Positions 25,137 to 47,413 of a stretch of DNA of 47,413 nucleotides are shown one piece after another. A program made the translations under genes and the position numbers. The DNA lies in contig SCRO01000010.1 in the NCBI GenBank assembly GCA_004298505.1, forward strand, positions 1 through 47,413, written 5' to 3'. Origin of the DNA: Rhodanobacter sp. (lineage in GTDB: Bacteria; Pseudomonadota; Gammaproteobacteria; Xanthomonadales; Rhodanobacteraceae). Numbering within the stretch: position 1 is the first letter of the stretch; each line of letters starts with the position of its first letter. The notes under the pieces were generated by a model. The model worked only from the letters and a program-made list of their open reading frames with translations. It did not search any database and was not told where the DNA came from.

Positions 25137-25212
25137 GCTCCCTTCGTCTAGTGGCCCAGGACACTGCCCTCTCAAGGCGGGAACACGAGTTCGAGTCTCG
25201 TAGGGAGCACCA
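25137..25212 (+). tRNA. tRNA-Glu, anticodon CTC
   Basis: A 76-nt cloverleaf. Acceptor GCTCCCT (25137-25143) pairs with AGGGAGC (25202-25208), followed by discriminator A and an encoded CCA. The anticodon stem CTGCC/GGCGG (with one T-G pair) encloses loop CTCTCAA, giving anticodon CTC for GAG codons. The T arm is ACGAG-TTCGAGT-CTCGT. The D-arm 'tcgtctagtggcccaggaca' is that of glutamate tRNAs. Confidence 0.95.
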
Positions 25213-31309: not shown

Positions 31310-31350
31310 CATGAAAAAAGCCGAGGCTGTCAACCGCGGCTTTTTTCATG
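31310..31350. terminator. Bidirectional terminator between the hydroxylase and isocitrate dehydrogenase genes
   Basis: CATGAAAAAAGCCG and its reverse complement CGGCTTTTTTCATG enclose a 13-nt loop; A6 and T6 tracts flank the stem, serving both convergent genes. Confidence 0.9.
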
Positions 31351-31367
31351 CACGATGAAGCCGAAAC

Positions 31368-32381
31368 TCAGCCCTTGATCCGCTTCACGATCGCCTCGGC
31401 GAAACTGCTGGTGCTGCCCTTGCCGCCAAGATCAGGCGTCACTTGTGCATGGTCGAGCTCGATCGTGGCGCGGATCGCCTGGCGCAACTGGTCGCCCTTG
31501 GCCACCATGTCCAGGTAATCGAGCATGTCGGCCGCGGCCAGCAGCAGTGCGCACGGGTTGGCAATGCCCTTGCCGGCGATATCCGGCGCCGAGCCGTGCA
31601 CGGCCTCGAAGATCGCCGCATGCTCACCAATGTTGTCGCCCGGCGCCAAGCCCAGGCCACCGACCAGCCCGGCGCACAGGTCGGACAGGATGTCGCCGAA
31701 CAGGTTGGTGGTGACGATCACGTCGAACTGTTCGGGTTTCATCACCAGCTGCATGCAGGTGTTGTCCACGATCATTTCGTTGAACTCGATCTGCGGATAT
31801 TCCCTGGCGATCTCGCGTGCCATGTTGAGGAACAGGCCCGAGCTGGTCTTCAGGATGTTTGCCTTGTGCACGGCGGTGACTTTCTTGCGGCCCTTCTTCG
31901 CCGCCAGCTCAAACGCGTAGCGCACGATCCGGCTGCTGCCCTTGCGCGTGTTGCGCGTCACCGATTCGGCGATCTCGCCATCTTCGGAGAGGGTTTGCCC
32001 CTCGGCACGGTAGGCACCCTCGGTGTTCTCGCGCACGATGATGATGTCGATGTTCTCGTAGCGTGATTTGGTGCCAGGAAAGCTCACCGCCACACGCACA
32101 TTCGCGTACAGGTCGAAGTGCCGCCGCAGAGTGACGTTGACCGAAGTGAAACCGCCGCCGATCGGTGTGGTCAGCGGCCCCTTCAGCGCCACCTTGTGCT
32201 CGGCGATCTTGTCCAGTGTGGACTTGGGCAGCAGGTCGCCCTGCTTTTCCAGCGCCACCATGCCGGCGTCGGCAAAGTCGTAACTCAAACCACAGTCCAA
32301 CGCGTCGAGCACGCGCAGCGTGGCAGTCATGATCTCCGGACCGATACCGTCGCCGGGGATCACGGCAAGTGTCTTGCTCAT
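31368..32381 (-). CDS. NAD-dependent isocitrate dehydrogenase
   Basis: 337 residues, the compact isopropylmalate-dehydrogenase-like type. Begins MSKTLAVIPGDGIGPEIM. Substrate site VRENTEGAYRAEGQ and FGDILSDLCAGLVGGLGLAP; cofactor site HGSAPDIAGKGIANP. The Asp-Ile after SAP is the pair associated with NAD preference; NADP enzymes have Lys-Tyr there. It should oxidatively decarboxylate isocitrate in the TCA cycle. Homoisocitrate or isopropylmalate dehydrogenase are less likely because of the serine-rich FTSVNVTLRRHFDLYANVR segment. Start at 32381; the longer frame to 32498 is unconserved. Confidence 0.88.
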   Translation of the reverse strand: MSKTLAVIPGDGIGPEIMTATLRVLDALDCGLSYDFADAGMVALEKQGDLLPKSTLDKIAEHKVALKGPLTTPIGGGFTSVNVTLRRHFDLYANVRVAVSFPGTKSRYENIDIIIVRENTEGAYRAEGQTLSEDGEIAESVTRNTRKGSSRIVRYAFELAAKKGRKKVTAVHKANILKTSSGLFLNMAREIAREYPQIEFNEMIVDNTCMQLVMKPEQFDVIVTTNLFGDILSDLCAGLVGGLGLAPGDNIGEHAAIFEAVHGSAPDIAGKGIANPCALLLAAADMLDYLDMVAKGDQLRQAIRATIELDHAQVTPDLGGKGSTSSFAEAIVKRIKG

Positions 32382-32546
32382 TGGGATACTCCTTGGGGCT
32401 GTTCGCATGCGTGCAGTGTGAAAACGCCTGCAAAGACCGCTTATTATCGCGCGTGCACCCTTAACCGGACAGCCAACCCATCGCGTGCGACGTTGCAAAT
32501 CCTCGCACGGAGCGTTGCGGAAACTCGCACCGCACGCAACTTCTTG

Positions 32547-32568
32547 CAGGAGCCCGCTCGCGCGCGAT
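32547..32568. repeat. Single REP-like unit
   Basis: caggagcccgctcgcgcgcg plus 'at' is one arm of the REP-like sequence also found at 10481-10503, with one substitution in the palindrome. It abuts the stop codon of the AhpD-like gene. Confidence 0.6.
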
Positions 32569-32945
32569 CAGGTGTGGTCGGCGCACTCCGCGGCGGCAGG
32601 TTCGCCGGTTTCCAGTTTGTCCAGGAAGTCCACCGCGCGGCGCAGGTGCGGGATCACGATGGATCCACCGACCACCAGACCCACGCTGAACACCTCGAAG
32701 AACTCATCACGTTGCACCCCGACCTGCTTGCACTGCGTCACGTGATAGCTGATGCAATCGTCGCAACGCAGCACCATTGAGGCGACCAGCCCAAGCATCT
32801 CCTTGGTCTTTACGTCCAGCGCGCCAGCCTTGTAGGTCTGCGTATCCAGGGCGAAGAAACGCCGCACAACCTGGTTGTCCTCGGCCAGGATGCGCTCGTT
32901 CATGCGCTGGCGGAAGGCGCTGAATGCGGCCAGTTGGTCGCTCAT
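32568..32945 (-). CDS. AhpD/carboxymuconolactone decarboxylase-like protein
   Basis: 125 residues. The AhpD-like core CDDCISYHVTQCKQVGV contains the CxxC pair C61/C64 and His68, the thiol-reductase triad of AhpD; the helix KTKEMLGLVASMVLR precedes it. AhpD relatives reduce peroxiredoxin systems, while other CMD-fold proteins decarboxylate; the CxxC favours a redox role. It overlaps the glutaredoxin gene by 4 bp, consistent with joint redox function. ATG 32945. Confidence 0.87.
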   Translation of the reverse strand: MSDQLAAFSAFRQRMNERILAEDNQVVRRFFALDTQTYKAGALDVKTKEMLGLVASMVLRCDDCISYHVTQCKQVGVQRDEFFEVFSVGLVVGGSIVIPHLRRAVDFLDKLETGEPAAAECADHT

Positions 32946-33205
32946 GCGGCAGACTCCAGCAACTGCTTGAGCTGGCCGTTGCGATCGGCCGCCGCCAGCT
33001 GGTCAAAGCCGCCGACATGCCGGTCGTTAATGAAGATCTGCGGCACCGTGCGGGCGCCGCCACTGCGCGCCAGCATCGCTTCGCGCTGCGCCGGATCGGC
33101 ATCTACGCGCACTTCGGTCCACTCCAGCCCACGGGCCTTGAGCAGGTTCTTTGCGGCTACGCAGTACGGGCATACCGCGGTGGAATAAACCTCGATCTTG
33201 GGCAT
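32942..33205 (-). CDS. grxC: Glutaredoxin, GrxC type
   Basis: 87 residues. MPKIEVYSTAVCPYCVAAK with dithiol active site C12-P-Y-C15, cis-Pro segment ARTVPQIFINDRHVGGFDQL, typical of GrxC. A glutathione-dependent disulfide reductase in the cytoplasm. The start at 33205 gives the normal length; an extension to 33262 is unconserved. It is first in a two-gene unit with the AhpD-like protein. Confidence 0.96.
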   Translation of the reverse strand: MPKIEVYSTAVCPYCVAAKNLLKARGLEWTEVRVDADPAQREAMLARSGGARTVPQIFINDRHVGGFDQLAAADRNGQLKQLLESAA

Positions 33206-33319
33206 CACGACAACTCCGGACAATATGGGAACTGCAGGTAAATGGGGTCCGACCGACTGCAAGGCAAGCCACGGAACCGACGCCCCGGCAGGTGGTCACA
33301 ATGTTATTGTCGCGTACCC

Positions 33320-35020
33320 ATGGCCATGACCCCAAGACGCCCCACCGCGTGCCTGTTGACGGCGCTGATCACCGCCGGCCTCACCTGCAGCGCCGGCGCG
33401 CAGGATGACGTGCGCCTGCCGGACCTGGGCAGCTCGGCCAACGCGCTGATCTCGCCACAGGAGGCGCAGGACTACGGTGCTTCCATGCTGCGCCAGATGC
33501 GCGCGCTGAACATGGTGGTTGACGACCCGCTGCTGGACGACTACATCAACGACCTCGGCCACCGGCTCGCCGCCAGCTCCGACAAGCCCAGGGATCATTT
33601 CGCCTTCTTCATCGTGAAAGATCCGGAAATCAATGCGTTCGCAGCGCCCGGTGGCTACATCGCGGTCAACTCAGGCCTGATCACGATCGCCCGCAACGAG
33701 AGCGAACTGGCCGGGGTGATCGCGCACGAAATCGGCCACATCACCCAGAACCACCTGCAGCGCGCGTTCGAGGCCTCGAAGAAGGATGCACCACTCATGG
33801 CGCTGGTGCTGCTCGGCGCGATCGTGGCCGGCGCCAGCAGCCACAGCGGCGATGCGCCGATGGCCGTGCTCGCCGGCGGCCAGGGCCTGCTTGCGCAAAA
33901 ATCGATCAACTTCACCCGCAAGGACGAGATCGAGGCCGATCGGGCCGGCATCCAGACGCTGGCGCGGGCTGGGTTCGATCCGAATGCGATGGCGGATTTC
34001 TTTCAGCGCATGCAGGATGTGCTGAGCACCGGCGCTGGCGGCGAAGACGTGCCGGCCCTGCTGCAGACTCACCCGGTGACCACGATGCGGATCAGCGATG
34101 CCAAGGCGCGTGCCGGTGCGCTGATCGCCGCGCAGAAACTGCGTCCCTCGGCCAGCATGGATGTTCAGGAGTGGGCCCGGACCACCGTCCCGATTGCTTT
34201 CGTCAAGAATCCGGCCAGTCTGCTCGAACCGCCCAAGGCTGGCCCGATCGATACGTTTGCGCTGATCCGCGAGCGCGTGCGGGTACTTGCCGGTGATGCG
34301 ACCAGAGAGGCCAGCTATTACGGCTCCAACCTGCACAACAGGCACGACTTCGATACCCCGGCGAACCATTACGGTTATGCGCTTGCGCTCACCCGCAGCG
34401 GTCGCGGCGCGGCGGCCATTGCCCAGTTGCAGCCGTTGCTGCGCACCTCGCCAGACAACCTGATTCTGAAGCTCGCGTTGGCCGACGCTGAACTGCAGGC
34501 CGGACAGCGGGCGCCCGCGCTGGAGATCTACAAGGCGCTTAACGCGCAATCGCCGCGCAATCGTGCCGTCGCGCTCGCCTACGCCAAGGCACTGACCGCC
34601 GGCGGCAGCAGGGACCAGGCCAGCCTCGCCGCGAGCTTGCTGCGGCCGATGCTGGACGACGCCAGCGAACCAGAAATCTACAGCGCTTACGCGCGCGCCA
34701 ACGACGAAGCCGGCGACAGCGTGCGAGCCAGCGAGGCCTACGCCGATGCCAGCTACTACGCGGGCCGGCCGTTCGATGCGATGGAACAGCTCAAGCGCCT
34801 GCTCAAGCGCACCGACCTGGACTACTACGCGCGCGCCCGAATCGAGGCCCGCATCACCGAACTGACCCCGCTGGTACTGGAACTGCGCAAGCGCAAGATC
34901 CAGACCGCAGACAATCCCGATGGACGCCAGCAGCAGTTGCAGCAGGACGTGGATTGCCACGGGCGGCTTTGCGTCGACTCCGGTGCCGCGCCCGTGGAAG
35001 CCTGGCGTACAAACCCATAG
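33320..35020 (+). CDS. BepA-like M48 metalloprotease with C-terminal TPRs
   Basis: 566 residues. The signal peptide (PTACLLTALITAGLTCSAGA) directs it to the periplasm. Zinc motif HEIGH at 136-140 (VIAHEIGHITQNHLQRAFEA), with third ligand Glu205 in DEIEADRAGIQTLARAGFDP. The C-terminal half has TPR-like helices (AAIAQLQPLLRTSPDNLILK, KLALADAELQAGQRAPALEI). E. coli BepA/YfgC has this architecture and monitors LptD/BAM assembly. Start at 33320; a second ATG is 6 bp on. Full length. Confidence 0.92.
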   Translation: MAMTPRRPTACLLTALITAGLTCSAGAQDDVRLPDLGSSANALISPQEAQDYGASMLRQMRALNMVVDDPLLDDYINDLGHRLAASSDKPRDHFAFFIVKDPEINAFAAPGGYIAVNSGLITIARNESELAGVIAHEIGHITQNHLQRAFEASKKDAPLMALVLLGAIVAGASSHSGDAPMAVLAGGQGLLAQKSINFTRKDEIEADRAGIQTLARAGFDPNAMADFFQRMQDVLSTGAGGEDVPALLQTHPVTTMRISDAKARAGALIAAQKLRPSASMDVQEWARTTVPIAFVKNPASLLEPPKAGPIDTFALIRERVRVLAGDATREASYYGSNLHNRHDFDTPANHYGYALALTRSGRGAAAIAQLQPLLRTSPDNLILKLALADAELQAGQRAPALEIYKALNAQSPRNRAVALAYAKALTAGGSRDQASLAASLLRPMLDDASEPEIYSAYARANDEAGDSVRASEAYADASYYAGRPFDAMEQLKRLLKRTDLDYYARARIEARITELTPLVLELRKRKIQTADNPDGRQQQLQQDVDCHGRLCVDSGAAPVEAWRTNP

Positions 35021-35088
35021 AACCGCAGCGGCTGAACGCTGCACCATCGGACGATGTATTTGGTGCGCGCCATGCGCCAGAATGAGTC

Positions 35089-37182
35089 ATGTCCAGACCA
35101 TCCACCCGCTTGGCGCCCACCGTCGATCTGTGCGCGCCGCAGCTGTATCTCAGTCGCGAACTGGCCGCTCTGGAGTTCAATTTCCGTGTACTGGCGATGG
35201 CGCGCGAGGCCCGCGTCCCGCTGCTGGAACGCTTGCGCTACCTGAGCATCGTGGCAAACAACCTCGACGAGTTCTTCGAGGTGCGGGTGGCGATGCTCAA
35301 GCACCACCATGCCTACGGCTCGGCCGCCCCCGGCCCTGACGGCATCCCCTCGGGCGAATTGCTGGCACGGATCCGCAGTCGCGTGCTGGACCTGGTCGCG
35401 GAGGTCTACGCCGCGTGGCAGGAGCAGATCGGCCCACAGCTCGATGCCGAACAGATCCACATCCTGACCCGCAAGCACTGGAGTCCGCGCCAGCGCCGCT
35501 GGCTGCAAGGCTATTTCGAGCACGAGGTGCTGCCCGTGCTGTCGCCGCTGGGGCTGGACCCGGCACACCCGTTTCCGCGCATCCTCAACAAGACATTGAA
35601 CATTGCGGTGGTGTTGAAGGGGCGCGACGCGTTCGGCCACGAAGGCCATATGGCGCTGGTACGAGCGCCACGTTCACTGCCGCGCATCATCCGGGTTCCA
35701 GCCGAGGTCAGCGGTCCGGGTGTGCATTTCGTGTTTCTGGCCGAGCTGCTGCAGACCTTCGTCGACCTGATGTTTCCCGGCCTCAAAGTGGTCGGTTCCT
35801 ACCAATTCAGGGTCACCCGCAACAGCGAGCTGATCGTCGAGGAGGCGGAGGTGGAAAACCTCGCACTCGCGCTCAGCGAGGAACTGGTCGGCCGCGGCTA
35901 CGCGCGTCCGGTGCGGCTGGAGATTGCCAACGACTGCCCGCAGGCGATCACCGCCATGCTGGTGGAGAACTTCCAGCTCGGCGAAGCCGACGTGTACCGC
36001 TGCGATGGCCCGGTCAACATCATCCGTGCCGCTTTGATCTACGACTGGCTGGATCGTCCGGAACTGAAATTCCCGCGTTTCACGCCGCAATTGCCGCCTG
36101 ACCTGGACAGCAGCCACAACAAGTTCGACCTGATCGCCAGGCGCGACGTGCTGCTGCACCATCCTTACCAGAGCTTCGCCGCGGTGATCGACCTGCTGCG
36201 CCAGGCCACCGCCGATCCGCAGGTGCTCGCGATCAAGCAGACCCTGTACCGGGCCGGCGAGGACACCCCGCTGGTCGACCTGCTCATCGAAGCCGCGCGC
36301 CAGGGCAAGGATGTCACCGTGGTGATCGAGCTGCGTGCGCGTTTCGACGAGGCGGCCAACATCGGCCTGGCCACGCGCCTGCAGGAAGCCGGCGTGCAGG
36401 TGGTCTATGGCGTGGTCGGTTACAAGACCCACGCCAAGATGATGCTGATCGTGCGCCGCGAAGGCGGCACCTTGCGCCGCTACGCACATCTCTCGACCGG
36501 CAATTACCACCAGGCCAACAGCCGCATGTACACCGACATCGGGCTGATGACGGCCAACCCGGAGATCGGCGAGGATCTGCACAAGGTCTTCCAGCAGCTG
36601 AGCGGGCTGGGCCCGATCATCGCGTTGAAGCGGCTGCTGCACTCACCGTTCACGCTGTATACGCAGGTGATGTCCAAGATCGAGCGCGAGATCGCCCATG
36701 CACGCGCCGGCCGTCCCGCACGCATCGTCGCCAAGCTCAACGCGCTGAACGAGGCGCGCGTGATTGCGGCGCTGTATCGCGCCTCGCAGGCCGGCGTGGA
36801 GATCGACCTGATCGTGCGCGGCGCCTGCACCCTGCGCCCCGGCCTGCCCGGAATCTCCGAACGCATCCGGGTCCGCTCGATCGTGGGGCGGTTCCTCGAG
36901 CACAGCCGGGTGTACTGGTTTGCCAACGACGGCGCGGCGGAAATCTACTGTGCCAGCGCCGACTGGATGGAACGCAACCTGATGCGACGCATCGAAATCG
37001 CATTTCCCATCCTTGACCCCGAGCTGGCCACGCGCGTGTTCGAGGAAACCCTCGCCAATGGCCTGGCCGACAACACCCAGGCCTGGTTACTGGGCAACGA
37101 CGGCCGCTACGTGCGCGCCGAGCCTGGTGACGAACCGCCGTACAGCGCACAGCAGGGCTTGCTCAAAAGGTTTTGTCAGTGA
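35089..37182 (+). CDS. ppk1: Polyphosphate kinase 1
   Basis: 697 residues. Synthesises polyphosphate from ATP. N-terminal domain: LYLSRELAALEFNFRVLAMA, NLDEFFEVRVAML. Phospholipase-D-like catalytic domains: the autophosphorylated His448 in GYKTHAKMMLI and His605 in RFLEHSRVYWF, with YLRYAHLST-like RYAHLSTGNYHQANSRMYTD between. It is followed 70 bp downstream by ppx on the same strand, the classical pair controlling polyP level. Full length. Confidence 0.96.
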   Translation: MSRPSTRLAPTVDLCAPQLYLSRELAALEFNFRVLAMAREARVPLLERLRYLSIVANNLDEFFEVRVAMLKHHHAYGSAAPGPDGIPSGELLARIRSRVLDLVAEVYAAWQEQIGPQLDAEQIHILTRKHWSPRQRRWLQGYFEHEVLPVLSPLGLDPAHPFPRILNKTLNIAVVLKGRDAFGHEGHMALVRAPRSLPRIIRVPAEVSGPGVHFVFLAELLQTFVDLMFPGLKVVGSYQFRVTRNSELIVEEAEVENLALALSEELVGRGYARPVRLEIANDCPQAITAMLVENFQLGEADVYRCDGPVNIIRAALIYDWLDRPELKFPRFTPQLPPDLDSSHNKFDLIARRDVLLHHPYQSFAAVIDLLRQATADPQVLAIKQTLYRAGEDTPLVDLLIEAARQGKDVTVVIELRARFDEAANIGLATRLQEAGVQVVYGVVGYKTHAKMMLIVRREGGTLRRYAHLSTGNYHQANSRMYTDIGLMTANPEIGEDLHKVFQQLSGLGPIIALKRLLHSPFTLYTQVMSKIEREIAHARAGRPARIVAKLNALNEARVIAALYRASQAGVEIDLIVRGACTLRPGLPGISERIRVRSIVGRFLEHSRVYWFANDGAAEIYCASADWMERNLMRRIEIAFPILDPELATRVFEETLANGLADNTQAWLLGNDGRYVRAEPGDEPPYSAQQGLLKRFCQ

Positions 37183-37252
37183 GGTCCGACGCCAGCACTG
37201 GTAGCGCCGATGCATGCGAAAATACGCGTTTTGCCACAAGCGGAGTCCCGAC

Positions 37253-38770
37253 GTGAGCGCGACCGAACAGACACCGATCCGCGATGGCGAACTGATGGCC
37301 GCGGTGGATCTCGGTTCGAACAGCTTCCACATGGTGGCGGCACGCATGGAACATGGCGAGCCGCGCGTGATCGACCGCCTGCGCGACGCTGTGCGGATGG
37401 CCGCCGGCCTGCACGCCGACGGCAGCCTGGATGCCGAACGGCGCACCCGCGCACTGGCCTGCCTGGCACGTTTCGGTCAGCGGATCGCGGGCGTTCCCTC
37501 GATGCGGGTGCGCGCGGTCGCCACCAACACGGTGCGCCAGCTGGCCTCGCCACAGGCGTTCCTGACCGCTGCCGAAGCCGCACTCGGCCATCCGATTGAA
37601 GTCGTCTCCGGCCGCGAGGAGGGCCGCTTGATTTTCCTCGGCACCGCGCACGATCTGCCTGCCTCGCGCGGGCCTCGCCTGGTGATCGACGTCGGCGGCG
37701 GCAGCACGGAATTCATCATCGGTCGCGACCTGGCACCGCTACACACCGAGAGCGTGCAGGCTGGCTGCATCGCCTCGACCCTGCGCTTCTTTCCCGGCGG
37801 CAAGCTCACCCGCGCGCGCTGGCAGCACGCCCTCAGCGAAATCGGCGTGTTGCTGCAACAGTTCGCCGAGGACTACCGCGAGTTCGGCTGGCAGGATGCC
37901 TACGGCTCATCCGGCACCGCCAAGTCGATCGGCTCGGTGGTCCAGGCGATGAAGCTTTCCGACGACGGCATCACGCCGATGTCGCTCGCCACATTGCGCG
38001 ACGCGCTGATCCACCAAGGGCGGATTGCTACACTGAAATTGCCCGGCCTGGTCGCCGAACGCGCGCCGATTTTTGCCGGTGGCGTGATCATCATGGAAGC
38101 GGCCTTCGCCGCGCTCGGTATCGAACGACTGCGTATCTGCGAAAGCTCGATGCGCGAAGGCCTGCTGTGGGACCTGATCGGCCGTGCCGGCGGCAGCGAT
38201 CCACGCACAGCCAGCATCGACGCCCTGGCCGCCCGTTACGCCGTCGATCGAGCCCAGGCATGTCGCGTCGAGGCGACCGCGCTGATACTTTTTGACCAGG
38301 TCGCGCGCAGCTGGAAACTGGACGCCGATGCCCGCGAATGGCTGTCATGGGCCGCGCGCGTGCACGAGATCGGCCTGGCCATCGCGCACAGCCAGCACCA
38401 GCGCCATGGCGCCTACATCCTGCGCCACGCGGACCTGGCTGGCTTTTCGCGGCAGGAGCAGCAACTGCTCGCTGCCGTGGTCGAGCTGCATCGACGCAAG
38501 CCGGACAAGTCGCTGGCGAGCGCCCTGCCGCTGCGCTATCGGGCCCTGGCAAAACACATTACTGCGCTACTGCGCCTCGCCGTATTGTTCCGGCGCGCCC
38601 GCCGCGCCGAGTCGCTGCCGCAGATGCAGCTGGTTGCCGGCAGCAAGTCGCTGCGCCTGAAGCTGCCGGCCACATGGCTCGAACAGCACCCGCTCACCGA
38701 GGCCGACCTGCAACAGGAACGATCGCCCATGGCCGAACTCGGCGTGAAACTGGAGGTCTCCGGCAAGTGA
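37253..38770 (+). CDS. ppx: Exopolyphosphatase / guanosine pentaphosphate phosphatase
   Basis: 505 residues. ASKHA-fold phosphatase removing terminal phosphate from polyphosphate or pppGpp. AVDLGSNSFHMVAARMEHGE and VIDVGGGSTEFIIGRD are the two phosphate-binding loops; GVSGREEG-like VVSGREEGRLIF and the C-terminal HD-like helical region complete it. GTG 37253 is chosen because GGAG lies 7 nt before it; an ATG at 37214 would add 13 residues. It is the partner of ppk1 upstream. Confidence 0.95.
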   Translation: MSATEQTPIRDGELMAAVDLGSNSFHMVAARMEHGEPRVIDRLRDAVRMAAGLHADGSLDAERRTRALACLARFGQRIAGVPSMRVRAVATNTVRQLASPQAFLTAAEAALGHPIEVVSGREEGRLIFLGTAHDLPASRGPRLVIDVGGGSTEFIIGRDLAPLHTESVQAGCIASTLRFFPGGKLTRARWQHALSEIGVLLQQFAEDYREFGWQDAYGSSGTAKSIGSVVQAMKLSDDGITPMSLATLRDALIHQGRIATLKLPGLVAERAPIFAGGVIIMEAAFAALGIERLRICESSMREGLLWDLIGRAGGSDPRTASIDALAARYAVDRAQACRVEATALILFDQVARSWKLDADAREWLSWAARVHEIGLAIAHSQHQRHGAYILRHADLAGFSRQEQQLLAAVVELHRRKPDKSLASALPLRYRALAKHITALLRLAVLFRRARRAESLPQMQLVAGSKSLRLKLPATWLEQHPLTEADLQQERSPMAELGVKLEVSGK

Positions 38771-38854
38771 CCACGCCAACCGCAAGCCAGCTGATCGCAT
38801 TGCCGCGTATCATGGGAGTTCATCCCTGAGTGCTGGCCCGGACCATTTGATGCC

Positions 38855-39574
38855 ATGCTGAAAACCCTGCTCACCGCCCTGCTCCTGTTCGCGCCACTGA
38901 TTGTGCTCGCACAAGCCGCCAAGCCCGTGGCCGCCGCATCGACGACGCCCGCAGTCAAGCCGGAGGTGCTGCTGCACACGTCGCAGGGCGATATCACGCT
39001 GGAGCTGTACCCGGACAAGGCACCCAAGAGTGTGGCCAACTTCCTGCAGTACGTGCGCGATGGTTTCTACGACGGCACCTTGCTGCACCGGGTGATCCCC
39101 GGCTACCTGGTGCAAGGCGGCCTGTACAATCGCGAACTGCAGCCAAAGCGCACGCGACCGGCCATTCCCAGCGAGGCGGACAACGGCCTGTCGAACCTGC
39201 GCGGCACGATTGCCGTCGCCCGCGGGGCTGACCCGAATTCCGGTACCGCGCAATTTTTCTTCAACCTCGTCGACAACCGCCGGCTTGATTTCGTCGGCAA
39301 CCAGAGCGGCCTCACCTGGGGCTTCGCCGTGTTCGGCAAGGTGACCAAGGGCATGGATGTACTCGACAAGATGGCCGCTTTGCCGACGCGCCCACTCGGC
39401 CCGTTTGCCGGAGACGTGCCCAACCCGCTGGTGGTGATCGAAAGCGCACGTGTCATCGGTGACGAGTTGCCCGCCGCGGCCGGCAGCACTGCCAAATCGG
39501 CAAAACCGGCCTCCCGCAAGCCCGCCCCAGCAAAGTCGCACAGGAAGGCCACTGCGCACGCCAGCAAGGGTTGA
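38855..39574 (+). CDS. Exported cyclophilin-type peptidyl-prolyl isomerase
   Basis: 239 residues. Signal peptide MLKTLLTALLLFAPLIVLAQ, then the cyclophilin domain: VLLHTSQGDITLELYPDKAP, FYDGTLLHRVIPGYLVQGG, NSGTAQFFFNLVDNRRLD and WGFAVFGKVTKGMDVLDKM. The Lys/Ala-rich tail (PASRKPAPAKSHRKATAHAS) is not part of the fold and may bind the wall or nucleic acid. PpiA-like periplasmic folding role is likely. 4 bp separate it from lpxH. Confidence 0.93.
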   Translation: MLKTLLTALLLFAPLIVLAQAAKPVAAASTTPAVKPEVLLHTSQGDITLELYPDKAPKSVANFLQYVRDGFYDGTLLHRVIPGYLVQGGLYNRELQPKRTRPAIPSEADNGLSNLRGTIAVARGADPNSGTAQFFFNLVDNRRLDFVGNQSGLTWGFAVFGKVTKGMDVLDKMAALPTRPLGPFAGDVPNPLVVIESARVIGDELPAAAGSTAKSAKPASRKPAPAKSHRKATAHASKG

Positions 39575-39578
39575 GAGC

Positions 39579-40313
39579 ATGGCCACGCTGTTCATCGCCG
39601 ACCTGCATCTGGATCCTTCGCGTGCGCAGATCACGCAGTTGTTCGAAAGCTACCTGGCCAGCGCCGAGGTCCGCCACGCCGAGGCGCTGTACATCCTCGG
39701 CGACCTGGTGGAAGCGTGGATCGGTGACGATGACGACGCGGAGCTGCCGCAACACATCGCCGACGCCACTCGCGCCGTGCGCGCCGCCGGGGTGCCCGTG
39801 TATTTCATGGTCGGCAACCGCGATTTCCTGCTGGGCGAGGCGTTCGCCGCGCGCGCGGGCATGACCTTGCTGGACGACGGCATCGTGCACGATATCCACG
39901 GCCGCCCCACCTTGCTGATGCACGGCGACGTGCTGTGTACTGATGACATCGCCTACCAGGCTGTGCGCCGGCAGGTGCGTACGCCTGAATGGCAGGCGCA
40001 CATCCTGTCGCTGCCGCTGGCGGCGCGCCGCGCGTTTGCCGCGAAAGCCCGTCACGACAGCAAGGCGCACACCGGCAGCACCATGGAAAGCATCATGGAC
40101 GTAAACGCCGAAGCGGTGGCCGCAACCATGCGCAGCGCGGGCGTGACCAGGCTGATCCACGGGCACACGCACCGGCCAGCCGTGCATGCCTTCGAGCTCG
40201 ACGGGAAACCCGCGGAACGGATCGTTCTTGGGGATTGGTACGAGCACGGGTCGGTGTTGCGGGTGGATGGGGACGTGGTGGAACTGCGAGGGCTGGCGCT
40301 CGATCGTATCTGA
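39579..40313 (+). CDS. lpxH: UDP-2,3-diacylglucosamine diphosphatase
   Basis: 244 residues. Calcineurin-like metallophosphatase of lipid A synthesis (UDP-2,3-diacylglucosamine to lipid X). Metal-binding motifs are in order: DLHLDPSR, GDLVEAWIGDDDD, GNRDFLLG, MHGDVLCTDD, and IHGHTHRPAVH. Start ATG 39579; the upstream open extension overlaps the cyclophilin gene. Possible co-transcription with the cyclophilin. Confidence 0.96.
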   Translation: MATLFIADLHLDPSRAQITQLFESYLASAEVRHAEALYILGDLVEAWIGDDDDAELPQHIADATRAVRAAGVPVYFMVGNRDFLLGEAFAARAGMTLLDDGIVHDIHGRPTLLMHGDVLCTDDIAYQAVRRQVRTPEWQAHILSLPLAARRAFAAKARHDSKAHTGSTMESIMDVNAEAVAATMRSAGVTRLIHGHTHRPAVHAFELDGKPAERIVLGDWYEHGSVLRVDGDVVELRGLALDRI

Positions 40314-40414
40314 TGCGGTTGCACCGGCAACCCACTGGACTGGATCGCCCGAACGAATCGCGCGCACTCAGCTCACTGGCAAGCTGATCCCGCTTCGGCC
40401 CACGCTCCTGGGCG

Positions 40415-40843
40415 TTACTCGGGCACGCTCTGGCCCGATCCGCCCAGCTCGGCCGGAAAATCTCTCAGCTTGGGCAAGCCGTCCTTCATGGGCAGCACGC
40501 TCTCGGCGTAGTTCACGTGGACGGCGGGCACGAAGGCCAGGGTCGGGATGGTTGCGGCGTAGACGTCGATCAGGCCGAGCGTAGGGTGGCTGGTCATCAC
40601 ATGGCCGCCGCATTGCTTGCAGAACTGGCGGTCGCTGGCTTCGGTCTTCCGGAAATGGCCGACGAATTCGGCGCCTCGGGTGAGCTTGACGCTGGAAGGC
40701 TTCCACAACGTGAATGCATTTACCGGCCCGGCCGACCAGGATCGGCAGGAACTGCAATGGCAGTAACCCATCGCCTCCGGCGCGCCAGTTACCTCGAGCT
40801 CCACGGCACCGCAGAAACAGCTACCCGTATGCTTGGCTGTCAT
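40415..40843 (-). CDS. GFA-family (glutathione-dependent formaldehyde-activating-like) zinc protein
   Basis: 142 residues. GSCFCGAVELEVTG and YCHCSSCRSWSAG carry the first zinc cysteines, CKQCGGHVMT the second set; this is the GFA/CENP-V fold. Family name notwithstanding, enzymatic function of most members is unproven. Begins at ATG 40843; no partner genes nearby. It marks the start of the accessory stretch. Confidence 0.88.
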   Translation of the reverse strand: MTAKHTGSCFCGAVELEVTGAPEAMGYCHCSSCRSWSAGPVNAFTLWKPSSVKLTRGAEFVGHFRKTEASDRQFCKQCGGHVMTSHPTLGLIDVYAATIPTLAFVPAVHVNYAESVLPMKDGLPKLRDFPAELGGSGQSVPE

Positions 40844-41044
40844 ATCGTCTCTCCCAGCGTGTTGGTGGTGTTTGGTTCCATGCCCAATCATGGCTGGCGA
40901 AAGCCGGAGCGCCAAGTCGGGGCAATGCGCCATCTTGTCCTCGGTGGAGTCCGGGCTTCTGCGCGCGCACCGAGCTTATACCCGCCACGTCCGGTATGGA
41001 TGAATCGGCCGCAAGGGTCCGTCCTGAAACCGGGACTGAAGCCG
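40844..41044. other. Non-coding stretch before the GGDEF remnant
   Basis: No reading frame here resembles a known family, and I see no repeat or hairpin of note. With the remnant that follows, it fills the roughly 350-bp interval between the GFA gene and the PEP-CTERM gene. Confidence 0.5.
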
Positions 41045-41140
41045 GGGCGGCACGGAGGCGATGAATTCATTGCGGTATGGCCGGACACGAACCATGCCAG
41101 TGCCCTGGAAATTGCCAGTCGCGTCAGCGAACTCGTGCGT
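41045..41140 (+). pseudogene. Fragment of a GGDEF (diguanylate cyclase) domain
   Basis: The plus-strand segment encodes GRHGGDEFIAVWPDTNHASA followed by LEIASRVSELVR, the half-site loop and following helix of a GGDEF domain. Nothing upstream or downstream in the frame resembles the rest of the domain (normally about 160 residues), so only about 32 residues remain. It cannot be active and is a deletion remnant. Confidence 0.75.
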
Positions 41141-41190
41141 GGAGGTGCTGCCCGCCAGGCGGCCTTTTCCGCTTCACCGCCTCCAAAAAA

Positions 41191-42135
41191 CTACGCTACG
41201 TCCGATTTCCCGTCCTCGGGCGACACGTCATGCCGCCTGCGGTACAGCACGAACCCCATCATCGCAAGCAACCCGGTTCCGAACAGCGGCAGGATGCCTG
41301 GTTCCGGCACCGCCTGGGCAGCCGTTTGAAAATCGACCATGTCGCCGCCATTGACGAGATTCGACTGGAACCAGTCCACATACGTGTAGTTGTTGCGCTG
41401 ATAGGAACCCAGGTTGAAGCCTATTTCATAGATGTGGTAGTCGTTACTCAGCACATCACCAAACGTGGCGTCGTTGGCCCAGGCGTCGAGTGACTGCTTC
41501 TTGCTGGCCCCGGGCGCCGTACCAAGGGACCCATTGCCGTATAGCCGCCAGGTTGCACTGTCCTTGTTGGCCGTGAACGTTTGCCACGTGTCAGGCAGAT
41601 TGGTTGGATTGAGATACGAGAACGTATAAGCGCTGCTTGTGCCGTCAAACAGGGAGATACTGAGGCCCAGCGTGCGATTGGTCGGTGCGGGCTGGCTGTA
41701 GTCCCTAAATGATGCATAAAAGTCGGAGCCAACAAGCGCAGTGCCCGCACCAAACCCACTGGGGGTGGTGTCCGCCACGCTGAGATTCGCCTTGCCTTGA
41801 TTTTTGTCGGTCGCATATACCTGCACCGCACCGTCGCCATCAAGCGATCCGGCAGGCCCGGCGACAAAACCGATCTGCTGCTCGATTTTCGCATCGTCGC
41901 CTGCTACAGCGCCGTGCTGAGCTATCAGGTACGGCTGAGTATCCTTCTGACCATAAAGATTGGTGCCGTTCGCGTCCCGCGTATCGGACGAATACCAGCC
42001 AGAAGCGCCAAAATGGTTGACGATGACGGGCGAGGCCTCGGCTGGTTGGGCAACAAGACTCAAGCCAGCCGCGATACCGGATGCTGCGATGAGCGTCAGG
42101 GCGGCGGTTGAAAGACGTGGGATGCAAGTTCTCAT
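41191..42135 (-). CDS. PEP-CTERM sorting-signal exported protein
   Basis: 314 residues. Signal peptide (RLSTAALTLIAASGIAAGLS, cleavage after QPAEA), a beta-rich body without a recognised enzyme domain, and a classical PEP-CTERM tail: VPEPGILPLFGTGLLAMMGF, then an Arg cluster YRRRH at 298-302. Exosortase (EpsH/XrtA) would cleave at the PEP and anchor it in the envelope or matrix. Shine-Dalgarno GAGGAG lies 7 nt before the ATG. No exosortase or other PEP-CTERM gene is in the window. Function unknown; probably a surface or matrix protein. Confidence 0.85.
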   Translation of the reverse strand: MRTCIPRLSTAALTLIAASGIAAGLSLVAQPAEASPVIVNHFGASGWYSSDTRDANGTNLYGQKDTQPYLIAQHGAVAGDDAKIEQQIGFVAGPAGSLDGDGAVQVYATDKNQGKANLSVADTTPSGFGAGTALVGSDFYASFRDYSQPAPTNRTLGLSISLFDGTSSAYTFSYLNPTNLPDTWQTFTANKDSATWRLYGNGSLGTAPGASKKQSLDAWANDATFGDVLSNDYHIYEIGFNLGSYQRNNYTYVDWFQSNLVNGGDMVDFQTAAQAVPEPGILPLFGTGLLAMMGFVLYRRRHDVSPEDGKSDVA

Positions 42136-42389
42136 AATTAGACTCCTCGTGGATGCCGGATCTCCGAGAGGTGAAGCAGGCGTGACACACAACCCCGGGT
42201 ACCTGGGGTCGGCGCATCCTGATTCCGCCGACGTTGATATCTAAGCAATTTCCGTGCCAAAAATATAAATTGATGTTTTCTCTAGAATAGTTTCATGTAT
42301 CTTCGGCGTGAGTAGCGCAATTCTGTAAAGAATTTCGACGTTCTCCGGGGAAACAGCGGTGCGCAACAGGGACGAGCAGGCCTTTACCG

Positions 42390-42560
42390 ACCGTGCGTGC
42401 GCTTGTCGGTGCTGGCCCAGCTCAACGTCTGGCGCAGCCTGGATGAGTAGGTTCGGCAGGTGGAAAAGTGGGTTCTTGCTGCGCACCCGCGACAAGGCGA
42501 ACGGGAGGCGCTGTGCTCGACACTGGGCATCGGGCGCATCCTGAGTCTGACCCCGTTGCG
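42390..42560 (+). pseudogene. Possible IS110-family transposase relic
   Basis: The frame reads LAQLNVWRSLDE-stop-VRQVEKWVLAAH and then LCSTLGIGRILSLT. The second part resembles the helix-hairpin-helix segment (xxTxPGIGxxLAxT) that follows the catalytic domain in IS110/IS1111 transposases. It is interrupted by a stop and has no ends. The family call is tentative. Confidence 0.35.
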
Positions 42561-42723
42561 AGGATGCCGCCCATCGACCGAGCCCTTGAGGGTTGATCCG
42601 CTTCAAGCGAGATCGTGAATCTGTGCACCGCGCGAGCGGGCACATGGACGGATCCGATGGCAACCGACGAGTGTTGCACGGCCCCCATCCCTGGCGGCCG
42701 CCCTCCGGGCCAGCTGCACTGTT

Positions 42724-42747
42724 CGGTTTTTGCTCTGGCAAAAACCG
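42724..42747. repeat. Perfect 10-bp hairpin
   Basis: CGGTTTTTGC-tctg-GCAAAAACCG. There is no adjacent gene end, so it is more likely part of a repeat or relic than a terminator. Confidence 0.6.
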
Positions 42748-42972
42748 TGGGAGCGCAAGCTCAAGGGCGTGAAAGCGTCTTGATCCAGAACGGCCGAGGG
42801 CATGGATGCCCGAGGTAGAGCAATGCAGGAGCAATTGCCGAGACTGGTGCGGGATCTTCCCGCAACCCATTGAGAACGTCGCGGCGACGGCACACTCCAT
42901 CCGGGTGCAACCACGCAGCCTGCAAAAGCCGGAGCGGGAGTCTGTGTCCCTGTTGACACCCGCGGCGAAATG

Positions 42973-43002
42973 GTGACCCCAAAGCTCGTGACCCCAAAGC
43001 TC
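42973..43002. repeat. 15-bp tandem duplication
   Basis: GTGACCCCAAAGCTC occurs twice without a gap about 60 bp past the 3' end of the response regulator gene. Confidence 0.8.
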
Positions 43003-43063
43003 GACGACGCGACCCTGCGCATCTTCCGCTGGAGACGTCTCAGTCTGTTTCCTGCTGGCGGAT

Positions 43064-43711
43064 TTATGCTTCGATCAATCCGTTCCGGACCGCGATCAAG
43101 GTCAGCTCAGCCTGATTTCCCACCCCGAGCTTTTGCTTGATGTTGTAAAGATGTGTACCGACGGTGTTGGGCGACAGGTTCATGATCTCCGCGATGTGCC
43201 GTACCGACTGACCGCGTGCAAGCTGCAGGAAAATCGAGAACTCCCGTTCCGTCAGCGCTTCGACACTCCCTGCTACGCCGCCCAAGCCTTGCATCGCCAG
43301 TTGGCGTGCGATTTCCACATCCAGATAGCGGCGCCCGGCCGTGACTGCGTAAACTGCCTCGATCAGTTCTTCCGGTGCAGTACGTTTGGACAAGTAGCCA
43401 AGCGCACCAGCCTGGAGCGCGCGTCTTGGATGCGCGGTATCTTCGTGGGCCGAAAGCACCAGCACGCGCGCCGCTTTGTCCTTGGCGAGCAGGTGACGTA
43501 CCGCGTCGATCCCGCCCATGCCGGGCATCGACAGATCCATGATCACCACGTTCGGTCGGACTTCCGCGTAACGCTGATAGGCGACTTCGCCGCTTTCGGC
43601 TTCGGCGACGACTTCGATGTCACCCGTAGCGGACAGCAGCATGCGGAAGCCAACCCGCACCACAGCGTGATCGTCGACCAGCATCACGCGGATTTTCGCC
43701 GTTGCGGTCAT
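43064..43711 (-). CDS. NarL/FixJ-type response regulator
   Basis: 215 residues. Receiver domain with acidic pocket D13/D14, phospho-acceptor Asp59 (NVVIMDLSMPGMGG), Ser87 in VLVLSAHED and Lys109 in GYLSKRT. A C-terminal LuxR-type HTH follows (LTEREFSIFLQLARGQSVRH, MNLSPNTVGTHLYNIKQKLG). It is a complete protein. It lies 3 bp after the truncated histidine kinase gene, so it was its cognate regulator. NarL-type pairs next to pqq genes control PQQ/alcohol metabolism in pseudomonads; a similar role here is inference from position only. With its kinase damaged, activation would need another phosphodonor. Confidence 0.92.
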   Translation of the reverse strand: MTATAKIRVMLVDDHAVVRVGFRMLLSATGDIEVVAEAESGEVAYQRYAEVRPNVVIMDLSMPGMGGIDAVRHLLAKDKAARVLVLSAHEDTAHPRRALQAGALGYLSKRTAPEELIEAVYAVTAGRRYLDVEIARQLAMQGLGGVAGSVEALTEREFSIFLQLARGQSVRHIAEIMNLSPNTVGTHLYNIKQKLGVGNQAELTLIAVRNGLIEA

Positions 43712-43714
43712 TGT

Positions 43715-44545
43715 CTATTCCAGTGGCAGGCGCGCATGCGTGCGCACGCCGCCGGCTTCATTGTTCTCGATCTCGACATCGCCGCCCAGCGTACGTGCTC
43801 GTTCACGCATACCGCGTATACCATAGTGGCCAGCCAGCTCCCAGTCGGGTGCGAGGCCGCGACCATCGTCGCGCACGTCGATATGCAATGCGTGAGCGTC
43901 GCTACCAAGCTCGATCTCGATACGCCGAGCCTGCGCGATCGCGCGCGCTTCGCGGTTCTTGAACTCGGGCAGGCGCGCGAGGGATAGGCCGCCCTGCATG
44001 TCCTCGAGGCCGCGGACGATATCCCGGAGCGGCCGGATCGTGCGCCCGACCAGCCAGAACACGAGCAAGTTGCCCACCACCATCACGATCAGGCCGAGCT
44101 GCAGCAGGTAGACGGTGTCGTCCCAACCATCCAGTACCGCCCGCGACGAATTTGACTGGATATCGAGCACGCTGCCGGCGAGGCGCAGTTGATAGTGCAA
44201 CGGCGCCGGCGCGACCAGTGCGGAGTACCACCCCGGTGCGTTGAGCCCGACCTTGTAGGGCGAAGGCGGCGACCGGTATATCACGCGGCCATGCGCATCG
44301 TGCAAGGTCATGTCGGTGGACCGCACATGGCCGAGTCGCTGCAACGACTGCCGTACCACTGGTTCGCTGGCATCCGCGTAGGTATCCACGAAATAAGTGA
44401 GCATTTGGGCCGCGACCTTGCTTGCCGAATCGGTATCTTCGCGCACCCGGGCGCGCGTGTCGCTGAGCTGAAACGCGAGCACGACGGCCGTGAACACCAC
44501 CATCAAGACGGCAACCAACAGGTTGAGCTGGACGCGCAGGCTCAT
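43715..44545 (-). pseudogene. Sensor histidine kinase with internal deletion
   Basis: An open frame of 276 residues: TM1 about 9-29 (LLVAVLMVVFTAVVLAFQL), periplasmic domain, TM2 about 146-167 (LLQLGLIVMVVGNLLVFWLV), HAMP (RTIRPLRDIVRGLEDMQGGL). Then at about residue 205 (REARAIAQARRIEIEL, near 43933) it jumps straight to the end of the HATPase domain (DDGRGLAPDWELAGHYGIRG). The whole HisKA_3 dimerisation helix with the phospho-accepting His and the ATPase N box, about 150 residues, are missing without loss of frame. It cannot autophosphorylate. It overlaps the hydrolase fragment by 4 bp. I class it as an in-frame deletion derivative; a regulatory role without kinase activity cannot be excluded. 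Confidence 0.78.
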
Positions 44546-45117
44546 GATGCTGCCGCGTTGGCGACAGTCGCCCAGCGCGAGAAGTCGTGCGTCGCCGCAA
44601 AGGCCTCGGTGGCGCTGCGCAACAGCCGCGACGTCGCCGGATGCGTTGGATCGTGCCCGGCACGCGTGGCCCAGGCCAGCCGGCTGCCTGCACAGGTACG
44701 CTGCACGCGCCAGGCGTTGCAGGGGCGACAAACCCAGTCTTGCGTGCCGCGCACGAGCGCGACGGGCATGCCGTGCAACGCGCTGGCGGCACGCAGCACC
44801 GCAGCCTCGCCGAGGAAACACCGCCGCGCGAGGTAGTGCGCTTGCACGCGATACTTGGCGATCAATCGTTGCGCCTTCCCGGCATCCGGCGCCGCTGGCG
44901 GCGCGCGCGTGGGGTGCAGTCCGCCGAGCGCCTGCTCGTAGGCCTGCCACGCCAGCGCAACCCGCAGTGCGCGCTCGCGATCGGCGTCCACGTCGGCGAA
45001 GCAGCGGTCGAGCCAAGTGATGACGCTGCGGTGCCAACGCCGCGGAATGACCGCCATGAAATCTGCATGGGGTTGCGACACCAGTGCGCCGACGCCATGA
45101 AAAAACCATTCAAGAGT
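44542..45117 (-). pseudogene. 5'-truncated proline iminopeptidase-like alpha/beta hydrolase
   Basis: The frame encodes the C-terminal part of an S33 proline iminopeptidase-like hydrolase: [61 protein letters not shown] (acid region) and RATRAGHDPTHP-like LAWATRAGHDPTHP with the catalytic His. The N-terminal half, with the GGSWGS nucleophile-Ser motif, is absent. Homology stops at about 45112-45117, exactly where pqqC homology begins on the other strand. A GTG at 45081 could start a 179-residue product without a nucleophile. The tail overlaps the kinase gene by 4 bp, so the three minus-strand genes formed an operon. Confidence 0.72.
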
Positions 45118-45685
45118 CGCAAACCGCTACTACTACCAGATCTCGATCCCGGTGAAGGATGCCGCGATCCTCTCCAATTGTCCGGATCGGGCCGTGCGCC
45201 GGCAGTGGGTGCAGCGCATCCTGGACCACGACGGCCACGGCGACGATCCCGGCGGTATCGAGGCGTGGGCACAGCTCGCGCTGGCGACCGGACTCGCGCG
45301 CGAGGAGCTGGAGGACCTGCGCCACGTGGCGCCTGGCATGCGTTTTGCCGTCGACGCCTACGTGAACTTCGCGCGCCGCGCACCGTGGCAGGAAGCGGCG
45401 TGCTCGGCGCTGACCGAGCTGTTCGCGCCGAAGATCCACAAGGAACGCCTTGCCAACTGGCCGCAGCACTATCCGTGGATCGAAAGCAACGGCCTGCAGT
45501 ATTTCCGCAACCGTGTTTTGCAGGCACGCCGTGACGTTGAACAGGCACTTGAAGTCACGCTGACTTATTTTGTCACGCCTGCACAGCAACAACGCGCGCT
45601 CGACATCCTGCAATTCAAACTCGATGTCCTGTGGGCAATGAACGACGCGATGGCACTCAAGTACGCAGCGGAGCTGACAGCATGA
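45116..45685 (+). pseudogene. pqqC: 5'-truncated pqqC (pyrroloquinoline-quinone synthase)
   Basis: The frame opens after TGA 45098 and shows PqqC homology from [20 protein letters not shown] onward, through [40 protein letters not shown] and [20 protein letters not shown] to the stop. PqqC is normally about 250 residues and has about 45-50 residues before VANR, including the Tyr-His active-site pair; these are missing. No start codon precedes VANR; the first is GTG 45152, giving 177 residues. PqqC performs the final oxygen-dependent ring closure of PQQ synthesis. Loss of the N-terminal helix suggests inactivity. It overlaps pqqD by 4 bp (ATGA). Upstream pqqA and pqqB are absent. Confidence 0.85.
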
Positions 45686-45987
45686 ATGTCGTTACGGTCG
45701 CCACCGACGAAACCACGGGATTTACACCCGGCAGCATCCCGCGCATAGGCCGCGGCTTCCGCCTGCAGTGGGAACCGGTACAGAAAGCACATGTGCTGCT
45801 GTACCCGGAAGGCATGGTCAAGCTCAACCGCACCGCCAGCGAGATTCTTTCGCGCTGCGACGGTGTGAAACCGGTGGCAGCGATCGTTGCCGAACTCGAA
45901 GAACTCTTCGATCAAACAGGACTGGATGCGGACGTGGTGGCGTTCCTCGACCTCGCTTGGACCCAACGATGGGTGGAATGCACATGA
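45682..45987 (+). CDS. pqqD: PQQ peptide chaperone PqqD
   Basis: 101 residues. Winged-helix RiPP recognition protein that delivers the PqqA precursor peptide to Pqq[21 protein letters not shown] and [20 protein letters not shown] are hallmark strands, followed by the three-helix bundle. ATG overlaps the pqqC stop (ATGA) and its stop overlaps the pqqE start (ATGA), so C-D-E are translationally coupled. Slightly longer than the usual 90-95 residues, at the N-terminus. Its substrate gene pqqA is not in the window. Confidence 0.93.
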
Positions 45988-47135
45988 ACGCACAAGCACA
46001 ACCGGCAATTCCTGAAACCACGATCGGCCCTCCATTCTGGCTGCTGGCCGAGCTTACCTATGAGTGCCCGTTGCATTGTCCGTTCTGCTACAACCCGGTC
46101 GACTTCGCGAAGCAGAAGACCGAACTGTCGACCGATGACTGGCTGCGCGTGCTGCACGAGGCACGTGCGATCGGCTCGGTGCAATGCGGCTTCTCCGGCG
46201 GCGAGCCGCTGCAGCGAAAAGACCTTGAGGTACTAGTCGCCGAGGCTCATCAGCTCGGCTATTACACCAACCTGCTCACCTCCGGCATTGGTCTCAATGA
46301 GAAACGTATCGTTGCCCTCAAGGAAGCCGGGCTCGATCACATCCAGCTCTCGTTCCAGGACTCGACGCGCGAGGTCAACGACTTCCTGTCCTCGACGCGC
46401 ACCTTTGACTTGAAGCGAGAGGCCGCCAGGCTCATCAAGAAGTACGATTTCGAGATGGTGATGAACTGCGTCATCCACCGCATGAACATCGACCACGTTG
46501 ACGAGATCATCAAGTTCGCGGTGGAGATCGACGCCAACTATCTCGAGCTCGCCAATGCGCAGTACTACGCGTGGGCACACATCAATATCGAGCGCCTGAT
46601 GCCAACGCGCGAGCAGCTCGTGCGCGCCGAGGCGACCACTAACCGCTGGCGCGAAAAGCTCGGCAACAAGATGCGACTGTTCTTCATCGTGCCGGACTAC
46701 TACGAGACGCGTCCGAAAAAGTGCATGAACGGCTGGGCCAACGTATTCCTGACCATTGCGCCCGACGGCGTTGCACTGCCGTGTCACACCGCGCGCATGC
46801 TGCCCGGGGCGCCCTTCCCGAACGTAAATGAGATGGGCGTACGCGAGATCTGGTATGACTCCGAGGGTTTCAATCGCTACCGCGGCACCGGCTGGATGAA
46901 GGAGCCCTGCCGCAGTTGCACGGAGCGCTTCAACGATCTCGGTGGCTGCCGCTGCCAGGCGTTCATGTTAACCGGCGATCCCACGAGTGCCGATCCGGTT
47001 TGCGACAAATCGCCTCATCACGGCGCCGTGCTGGCCGTGGTCGCAACGGCGCAACTCCCGCAGGATCCGAAAAAGTCGAAACCACTGGTGTTTCGCGGTA
47101 GCAAAGAGTCGGCCAGCGCGGAAAAGTTGTTCTAG
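45984..47135 (+). CDS. pqqE: PQQ biosynthesis radical SAM enzyme PqqE
   Basis: 383 residues. Radical SAM/SPASM enzyme that cross-links Glu and Tyr of PqqA, the first step of PQQ synthesis. CxxxCxxC motif C28-C32-C35 in LTYECPLHCPFCYNP; SAM-binding CGFSGGEPLQRKDLE; SPASM cysteines in LPCHTARMLPG, EPCRSCTERFNDLGGCRCQA and DPVCDKSPHH. Intact and full length. The start at ATG 45984 overlaps the pqqD stop; an upstream extension to 45768 lies inside pqqD. Without pqqA and with pqqC cut, the operon is unlikely to make PQQ unless those functions lie elsewhere. Confidence 0.96.
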   Translation: MNAQAQPAIPETTIGPPFWLLAELTYECPLHCPFCYNPVDFAKQKTELSTDDWLRVLHEARAIGSVQCGFSGGEPLQRKDLEVLVAEAHQLGYYTNLLTSGIGLNEKRIVALKEAGLDHIQLSFQDSTREVNDFLSSTRTFDLKREAARLIKKYDFEMVMNCVIHRMNIDHVDEIIKFAVEIDANYLELANAQYYAWAHINIERLMPTREQLVRAEATTNRWREKLGNKMRLFFIVPDYYETRPKKCMNGWANVFLTIAPDGVALPCHTARMLPGAPFPNVNEMGVREIWYDSEGFNRYRGTGWMKEPCRSCTERFNDLGGCRCQAFMLTGDPTSADPVCDKSPHHGAVLAVVATAQLPQDPKKSKPLVFRGSKESASAEKLF

Positions 47136-47413
47136 ACATGCGCCGTGGCTGCCGTTGTCACGTAGTGTCGATGACGCCGAGCGGGTGTACTTGATCGACA
47201 CCTCGTAGGCGCTGCATGCGTCGATGCGCATGTGCGCCTTCAGTAGACGAACCAGGGATCAGCCTCGGAAGCACGGGTCAAGAAGCACGGGGTCTAGCAG
47301 CCTGTCGGACTTACGGAAAATCACAAAATTTTGGTCAAAAAGTGATCAAAACTGCCGGCGTAGGTCGCCTCAAATTGAGTTCGAGTCCTCAAGTTGCCGC
47401 AAATCGACGTACG
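47136..47413. other. Intergenic end of window with a possible mobile-element border
   Basis: No gene is recognisable. From 47298 (cagcctgtcggacttacgga) composition changes to A+T-rich (aaaatcacaaaattttggtc). The wording 'agcagcctgtcggactt' reminded me of insertion-sequence termini in this group. Only one end is in view, so this is a weak call. Confidence 0.3.

Follow-up and report, generated by a model that had tools for sequence, protein, structure and literature searches.

The DNA analysed here (the window) is an entire contig, C4 with 47,413 bp, of Rhodanobacter sp. (G000), whose 3.78-Mb draft genome is distributed over 139 contigs with an estimated contamination of 3.5%. The right end of this contig carries a block of genes related to the biosynthesis of the cofactor PQQ, arranged in the order regulator, sensor kinase, hydrolase fragment, pqqC fragment, pqqD and pqqE (Table 1), and the end of pqqE is separated from the contig end by 280 bp. 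The single tRNA gene of the window (25137-25212) is located away from this region, and an Rfam search of positions 40000-47413 returned no family at threshold.

Table 1. Features at the right end of the window and PQQ-type dehydrogenases encoded elsewhere in the genome.
Feature	Position	Strand	Basis or remark
Genus-native repeat of about 45 bp on the left side of the pqq remnant	42795-42841		At least 25 congeners with matches of 82-94%
NarL/LuxR-type response regulator, intact	43064-43711	-	Response_reg and GerE
Sensor histidine kinase shortened internally and in frame by about 0.5 kb, junction at about 43928-43931	43715-44545	-	Alignment, spacing
C-terminal half of a proline-iminopeptidase-type alpha/beta hydrolase, no start at the broken end	44542-45117	-	TIGR01249, alignment
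Deletion junction with loss of about 1.8-1.9 kb between hydrolase and pqqC	45114-45116		Alignments and locus spacing
pqqC lacking about 46 N-terminal residues, no upstream start	45116-45685	+	TIGR02111, PDB 1otv
pqqD, open and complete	45682-45987	+	TIGR03859 and NF002535 over cut-off
pqqE, open and complete	45984-47135	+	TIGR02109, 8e-151
About 120-bp dispersed repeat ending the contig, right of the remnant	47294-47413		91-100% copies on C114, C79, C120 and C52
PQQ alcohol dehydrogenase	C110 (L151:2282-4492)		
PQQ alcohol dehydrogenase	C48 (L152:2087-3814)		
PQQ alcohol dehydrogenase	C122 (L153:2332-4029)		

Two of these genes lack their 5' parts. The plus-strand frame at 45116-45682 matches positions 42-226 of 239 of the PqqC model TIGR02111 (1.4e-82) and, with 276.7 bits, still scores above the cut-off of 240, while the first 41 model positions are absent and no start codon is present there, so that it does not constitute a complete pqqC. 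Klebsiella-type PqqC structures likewise match from chain residue 47 or 48 (47 for 1otv), in line with the 45-50 missing residues estimated in a first-pass annotation of this DNA. The frame opens after a TGA codon (45098-45100) and its first ATG, GTG or TTG codon is the GTG at 45152, which is situated inside the conserved region. In an alignment with six relatives, the window's row starts with VANRYYYQ opposite WVANR. Of the 30 residues preceding VANR, at least 15 (median 22) are identical to those of R. cellulosilytica in all 81 testable loci, the R. cellulosilytica reference itself included, compared to 1 of 30 in the window. None of these relatives naturally starts pqqC at this point, as the frame is open and PqqC-like for at least 46 codons upstream in 81 of 81 cases. 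A standard start codon is found at least 35 codons upstream in 79 of them; of the remaining two, L011 is cut off by the edge of its contig, and L013 encodes the N-terminal sequence but offers no standard start in reach. The downstream genes pqqD and pqqE are still open, as had been noted before, and the pqqE cysteines that align to those of 6c8v are retained.

The hydrolase fragment on the opposite strand (44545-45117) matches positions 136-306 of 307 of TIGR01249 with an E-value of 1e-12. Its score of 47.9 compares to a cut-off of 259.75 and to 236.1 for the intact orthologue of a Rudaea relative (L004, 331 aa), which is itself just below the cut-off and matches solved proline iminopeptidases. 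When aligned with five relatives, the fragment starts with ATLEWFF opposite ADLDWFF, two stray letters further upstream being alignment noise, and the GGSWG block is therefore absent. The Asp and His regions are kept, yet the missing GGSWG block sets the fragment apart from true members of the family. We take this block to be the nucleophile elbow that acts together with Asp and His, and the hydrolase has thus lost its nucleophile half, as proposed in the first-pass annotation. The frame is closed by a TAG codon at 45127-45129, and the first in-frame start is an internal GTG at 45081.

Both truncations end at the same place. On the minus strand, homology to the hydrolase ceases at about 45114-45117, and on the plus strand, homology to pqqC starts at 45116, so that the two abut within about 1-4 bp; these limits, obtained from profile matches and alignments, agree with those read initially from the sequence (about 45112-45117 and about 45116). 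The DNA at this point reads TTCAAGAGTCGCAAAC, which places the junction at 45114-45116. Since the nearest intact PqqC found is only about 82% identical, the breakpoint and a possible microhomology are not readable at the level of single bases.

The ancestral arrangement was sought in 82 loci, comprising the best 80 of 236 pqq loci together with G087 and G080. Among these, pqqC is matched from its third residue or earlier in 81 (L018 is cut), and matches to the hydrolase, the kinase and the regulator were obtained in 48, 43 and 40 loci, respectively; some of the 34 loci that gave no hydrolase match are cut by contig ends. In the relatives, a leftward set of regulator, sensor kinase and hydrolase faces a rightward pqqA-B-C-D-E operon. 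The order hydrolase, pqqA, pqqB, pqqC, for which the first-pass annotation had suggested looking, is present in Rudaea cellulosilytica (L002) and Rudaea sp. MAG_CA158 (L004), where the minus-strand hydrolase is followed by pqqA, pqqB, pqqC, D and E. The intervening DNA of both loci contains pqqA (24 aa) and pqqB, each over its curated cut-off, as well as both 5' ends, and hence exactly those parts that had been proposed to be removed here. The Rudaea pqq block shares gene order and orientation with the window, and its PqqC and PqqE are 80-82% and 72% identical to those of the window, respectively, whereas pqqA, pqqB, the 5' half of the hydrolase, the 5' end of pqqC and the kinase core are missing from the latter.

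From this comparison, a deletion of 1,787 bp relative to L002 or 1,909 bp relative to L004 can be inferred. More generally, the points that are in contact in the window are separated by 1,648-1,924 bp in 47 of the 48 loci in which the hydrolase was matched. An intact block in relatives, whose homologous points meet as two stumps in the window, is what characterizes an operon inactivated by deletion, and the narrow spacing supports the earlier proposal that one deletion accounts for both truncations. In the exceptional locus, L080, the distance amounts to 3,333 bp. This locus contains an extra partial pqqC match (L080:4603-4779, corresponding to the first 55 residues of the fragment) between the hydrolase and a full pqqC, possibly as a result of duplication or misassembly.

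The first-pass annotation had confined the disruption to the hydrolase and pqqC. This holds for both genes but underestimates the extent of the damage, because the adjacent sensor kinase is broken as well. Its sequence reads AIAQ-ARRIEIEL where relatives carry about 165 additional residues, including RELHDE and the N-box region, and the two kinase pieces that touch here are 423-576 bp apart in all 37 loci in which both were matched. The remnant of 276 aa has lost the H-box and the N-box region and retains only a C-terminal HATPase match. It therefore lacks what defines a sensor histidine kinase, i.e. a DHp domain with its phospho-acceptor His and a complete ATPase domain (the roles of these motifs being presumed), and, judged by sequence, its product should be nonfunctional as a kinase. 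The regulator, which is 71-75% identical to the two Rudaea orthologues, adjoins the pqq cluster in many relatives.

Very probably, the block is a decaying PQQ biosynthesis locus in which a single deletion of about 1.8-1.9 kb has joined two stumps head to head and a separate deletion has affected the kinase. An ancestor with the standard arrangement of leftward regulator, sensor kinase and hydrolase facing rightward pqqA-B-C-D-E would have lost, in one event, the first approximately 44% of the hydrolase, the divergent spacer with the presumed promoters, pqqA, pqqB and the first approximately 46 codons of pqqC. The stumps would thereby have been left head to head with no or few bases in between, and expression of both units would presumably be lost. 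The sensor kinase has lost its phospho-acceptor part to a separate deletion, which is in frame and about 0.5 kb long. In the absence of the precursor peptide PqqA, of PqqB and of a complete PqqC, PQQ could not be made by this route, and pqqD and pqqE, although open, are probably unused.

The wider setting of the block was inferred from comparison with congeners. The region 31315-40301 belongs to the genus backbone and is 85.8% identical to and colinear with the corresponding DNA of G003 (8,987 vs 8,986 bp). Among the matches listed, its last part (37000-40300) is matched as one piece of more than 3 kb in 37 of 44 congeners and as two pieces in four more. The DNA that follows position 40301 in G003 is found in the genome studied here on another contig (C2:129430), in a repeat-rich spacer, which identifies 40301 as a rearrangement point; the gene preceding this breakpoint is presumably LpxH-like, a name given from reading of the sequence. 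Beyond this point, 40407-40873 and 41232-42368 find their best matches in G029 and G012, respectively, among the matches listed. A minus-strand frame in this variable region (41191-42192) carries a PEP-CTERM sorting signal, and similar DNA (83%) occurs in G012 only, again among the matches listed. The pqq remnant is further flanked by genus repeats on both sides (Table 1); copies of the right-hand repeat with 82-84% identity are present in G060, and those on C114 and C79 were checked. These repeats, together with the pieces matched in single congeners, argue against simple contamination.

The breakpoint at 40301, with the congeners' neighbour of 40300 residing on C2, would also suit an inversion or translocation that moved pqqA, pqqB and the two 5' ends elsewhere. 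This is extremely improbable, given that the stumps join at positions that are homologous within a single conserved block and that the missing parts were not found in the genome. For pqqB, merely a match over 38 positions was obtained (E 0.03), and nothing scored over the cut-off for pqqA (best E 2.2), so that neither gene can be assigned. The same models detect both genes in L002 and L004, which serves as a positive control for their absence here, with the reservation that a pqqA of only about 24 aa could be missed if located in an assembly gap. Likewise, no orphan N-terminal half of the hydrolase is present among the five other TIGR01249 matches of the genome. Those on C66 and at C15:25294 are full-length paralogues, and the match at C15:22554, which covers the complementary part of the model, was dismissed as part of a complete hydrolase of 329 aa. 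The matches on C7 and C88 are located in other long hydrolase-type frames, and these, like that of C15:22554, resemble the missing half weakly and over a short stretch at most.

That the junction is an artefact of the assembly or of a chimeric read and conceals an intact cluster in the living strain is unlikely, if somewhat less so than relocation. The number of contigs, the contamination estimate and the position of the cluster at a contig end, in a repeat, all speak for such an error. Yet, the hydrolase and pqqC homologies share at most a few bases, i.e. less than the overlap that assemblers need, and the missing pqqB is found on no other contig. Moreover, a second deletion is located 1.2 kb away, and colinearity with G003 is maintained over the 9 kb of backbone that precede 40301.

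The deletion-bearing cluster is a rarity in its genus. A survey of 45 genomes, including the one studied here, of which seven are outside the set with at least 90% completeness and at most 5% contamination, revealed pqqC of this type in none of the 44 other genomes, and the same picture was obtained for pqqE. One of the 44 congeners, G030, has a divergent type with a PqqC of 44% identity. This divergent pqqC-D-E set (L082, G030:C587) resides on a short contig in an assembly of 690 contigs, and the frame preceding pqqC is, by our own reading, presumably pqqB-like; the cluster may be of foreign origin or a contamination. In the entire family, any pqqC was found in 12 of 233 genomes, G000 included. 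Trees of PqqC and PqqE pair the window with G080 from the same family (support 95/97, 22 rows), near Rudaea and Hydrocarboniphaga. In a 79-row tree, the support for this pairing is 96, with long branches, including that of G080, being flagged. As none of the 44 congeners possesses this pqq type, what is decaying here is probably a cluster that was acquired or has rarely been kept. The simplest reading is that it was acquired from within the family or near it and decayed afterwards, the alternative being an old cluster that was lost by all sampled congeners; the picture is thus that of a single lineage in the course of losing a cluster which its congeners either lost earlier or never possessed.

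The remnants also provide hints to the age of the deletion. Sites showing no variation across five intact relatives (four in the case of the hydrolase) were considered, and changes in the window were compared to those in the pooled relatives. No internal stops are present in the remnant frames, and no excess of changes was observed in pqqC (2/113 vs 19/574), pqqD (1/37 vs 9/189) and the hydrolase (3/53 vs 28/228), and the pqq deletion therefore looks recent, which suggests an event that is recent on the scale of divergence. The regulator, with 7 changes at 99 sites, is not significantly above the pooled relatives. Changes are in excess in pqqE (17/217 vs 41/1041, p 0.02) and the kinase (12/74 vs 21/331, p 0.009), in pooled tests that ignore branch lengths and are uncorrected for six genes. 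Hence, the decay of the block may date further back than indicated by the figures for pqqC, and the data allow that the kinase failed before the pqq deletion.

These figures bear equally on whether the truncated set is still at work. A shortened pqqC, started from the GTG at 45152, could conceivably function with pqqD and pqqE on an outside substrate or in another peptide-modifying role, as the open pqqD and pqqE frames, the conserved 6c8v-aligned cysteines and the lack of excess changes in pqqC and pqqD would be in keeping with. Such continued function is very unlikely, since pqqA has been lost along with the spacer preceding it, no precursor peptide was found, pqqE shows a mild excess of changes, and a start at GTG 45152 would additionally forfeit a conserved stretch of 12 residues. 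Loss of PQQ production by deletion and decay thus remains the preferred reading. The first-pass annotation had called the locus an unusual snapshot of PQQ loss. The loss with pqqD and pqqE still open stands, whereas the process is better described as ordinary operon decay, albeit a clean case. This locus was not found described in the literature on PQQ genes, their loss or their neighbours, as covered by titles and abstract openings. The general picture remains unchanged. The second deletion and the genus context make this instance of decay fuller, and the locus offers a well-bounded example of cofactor pathway loss, in which one deletion across a divergent spacer would disable two transcription units simultaneously, with stumps of a comparable kind being left of both.

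The enzymes that would use the cofactor are still encoded. Three proteins of the genome score over the cut-off for PQQ-dependent methanol/ethanol dehydrogenases (Table 1), and PQQ-type dehydrogenases over cut-off occur in 11 of the 45 genus genomes. Apart from G000 and G030, none of these 11 has pqqC or pqqE at the applied thresholds, which leaves nine genomes (G005, G010, G011, G015, G024, G026, G032, G064 and G066, with G005, G011 and G066 being only 86-89% complete). Other species of the genus thus already carry such dehydrogenases with no detectable PQQ pathway. According to PMC12124388, use of PQQ without its synthesis is a known strategy, e.g. in Escherichia coli with PqqU and Gcd, and loss of the pathway need hence not cost the dehydrogenases. 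Like E. coli, the genome studied here combines PQQ-type dehydrogenases with the lack of a complete PQQ pathway; unlike E. coli, it still contains the broken remnant (PMC12124388).

Together with the retained dehydrogenases, the locus provides a testable case of a bacterium that turns from producing a shared cofactor to consuming it. As a tentative suggestion that is rather less than probable, the species might only recently have switched from making to scavenging PQQ, with synthesis freshly broken and three full-length dehydrogenases, probably of the lanthanide type, remaining. All three proteins contain a D-x-D motif (WDYD in C110 and C122, WDWD in C48), which we take to be a lanthanide-type signature in these dehydrogenases. 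The C48 enzyme harbors HH at the position where those of C110 and C122 have an adjacent Cys pair.
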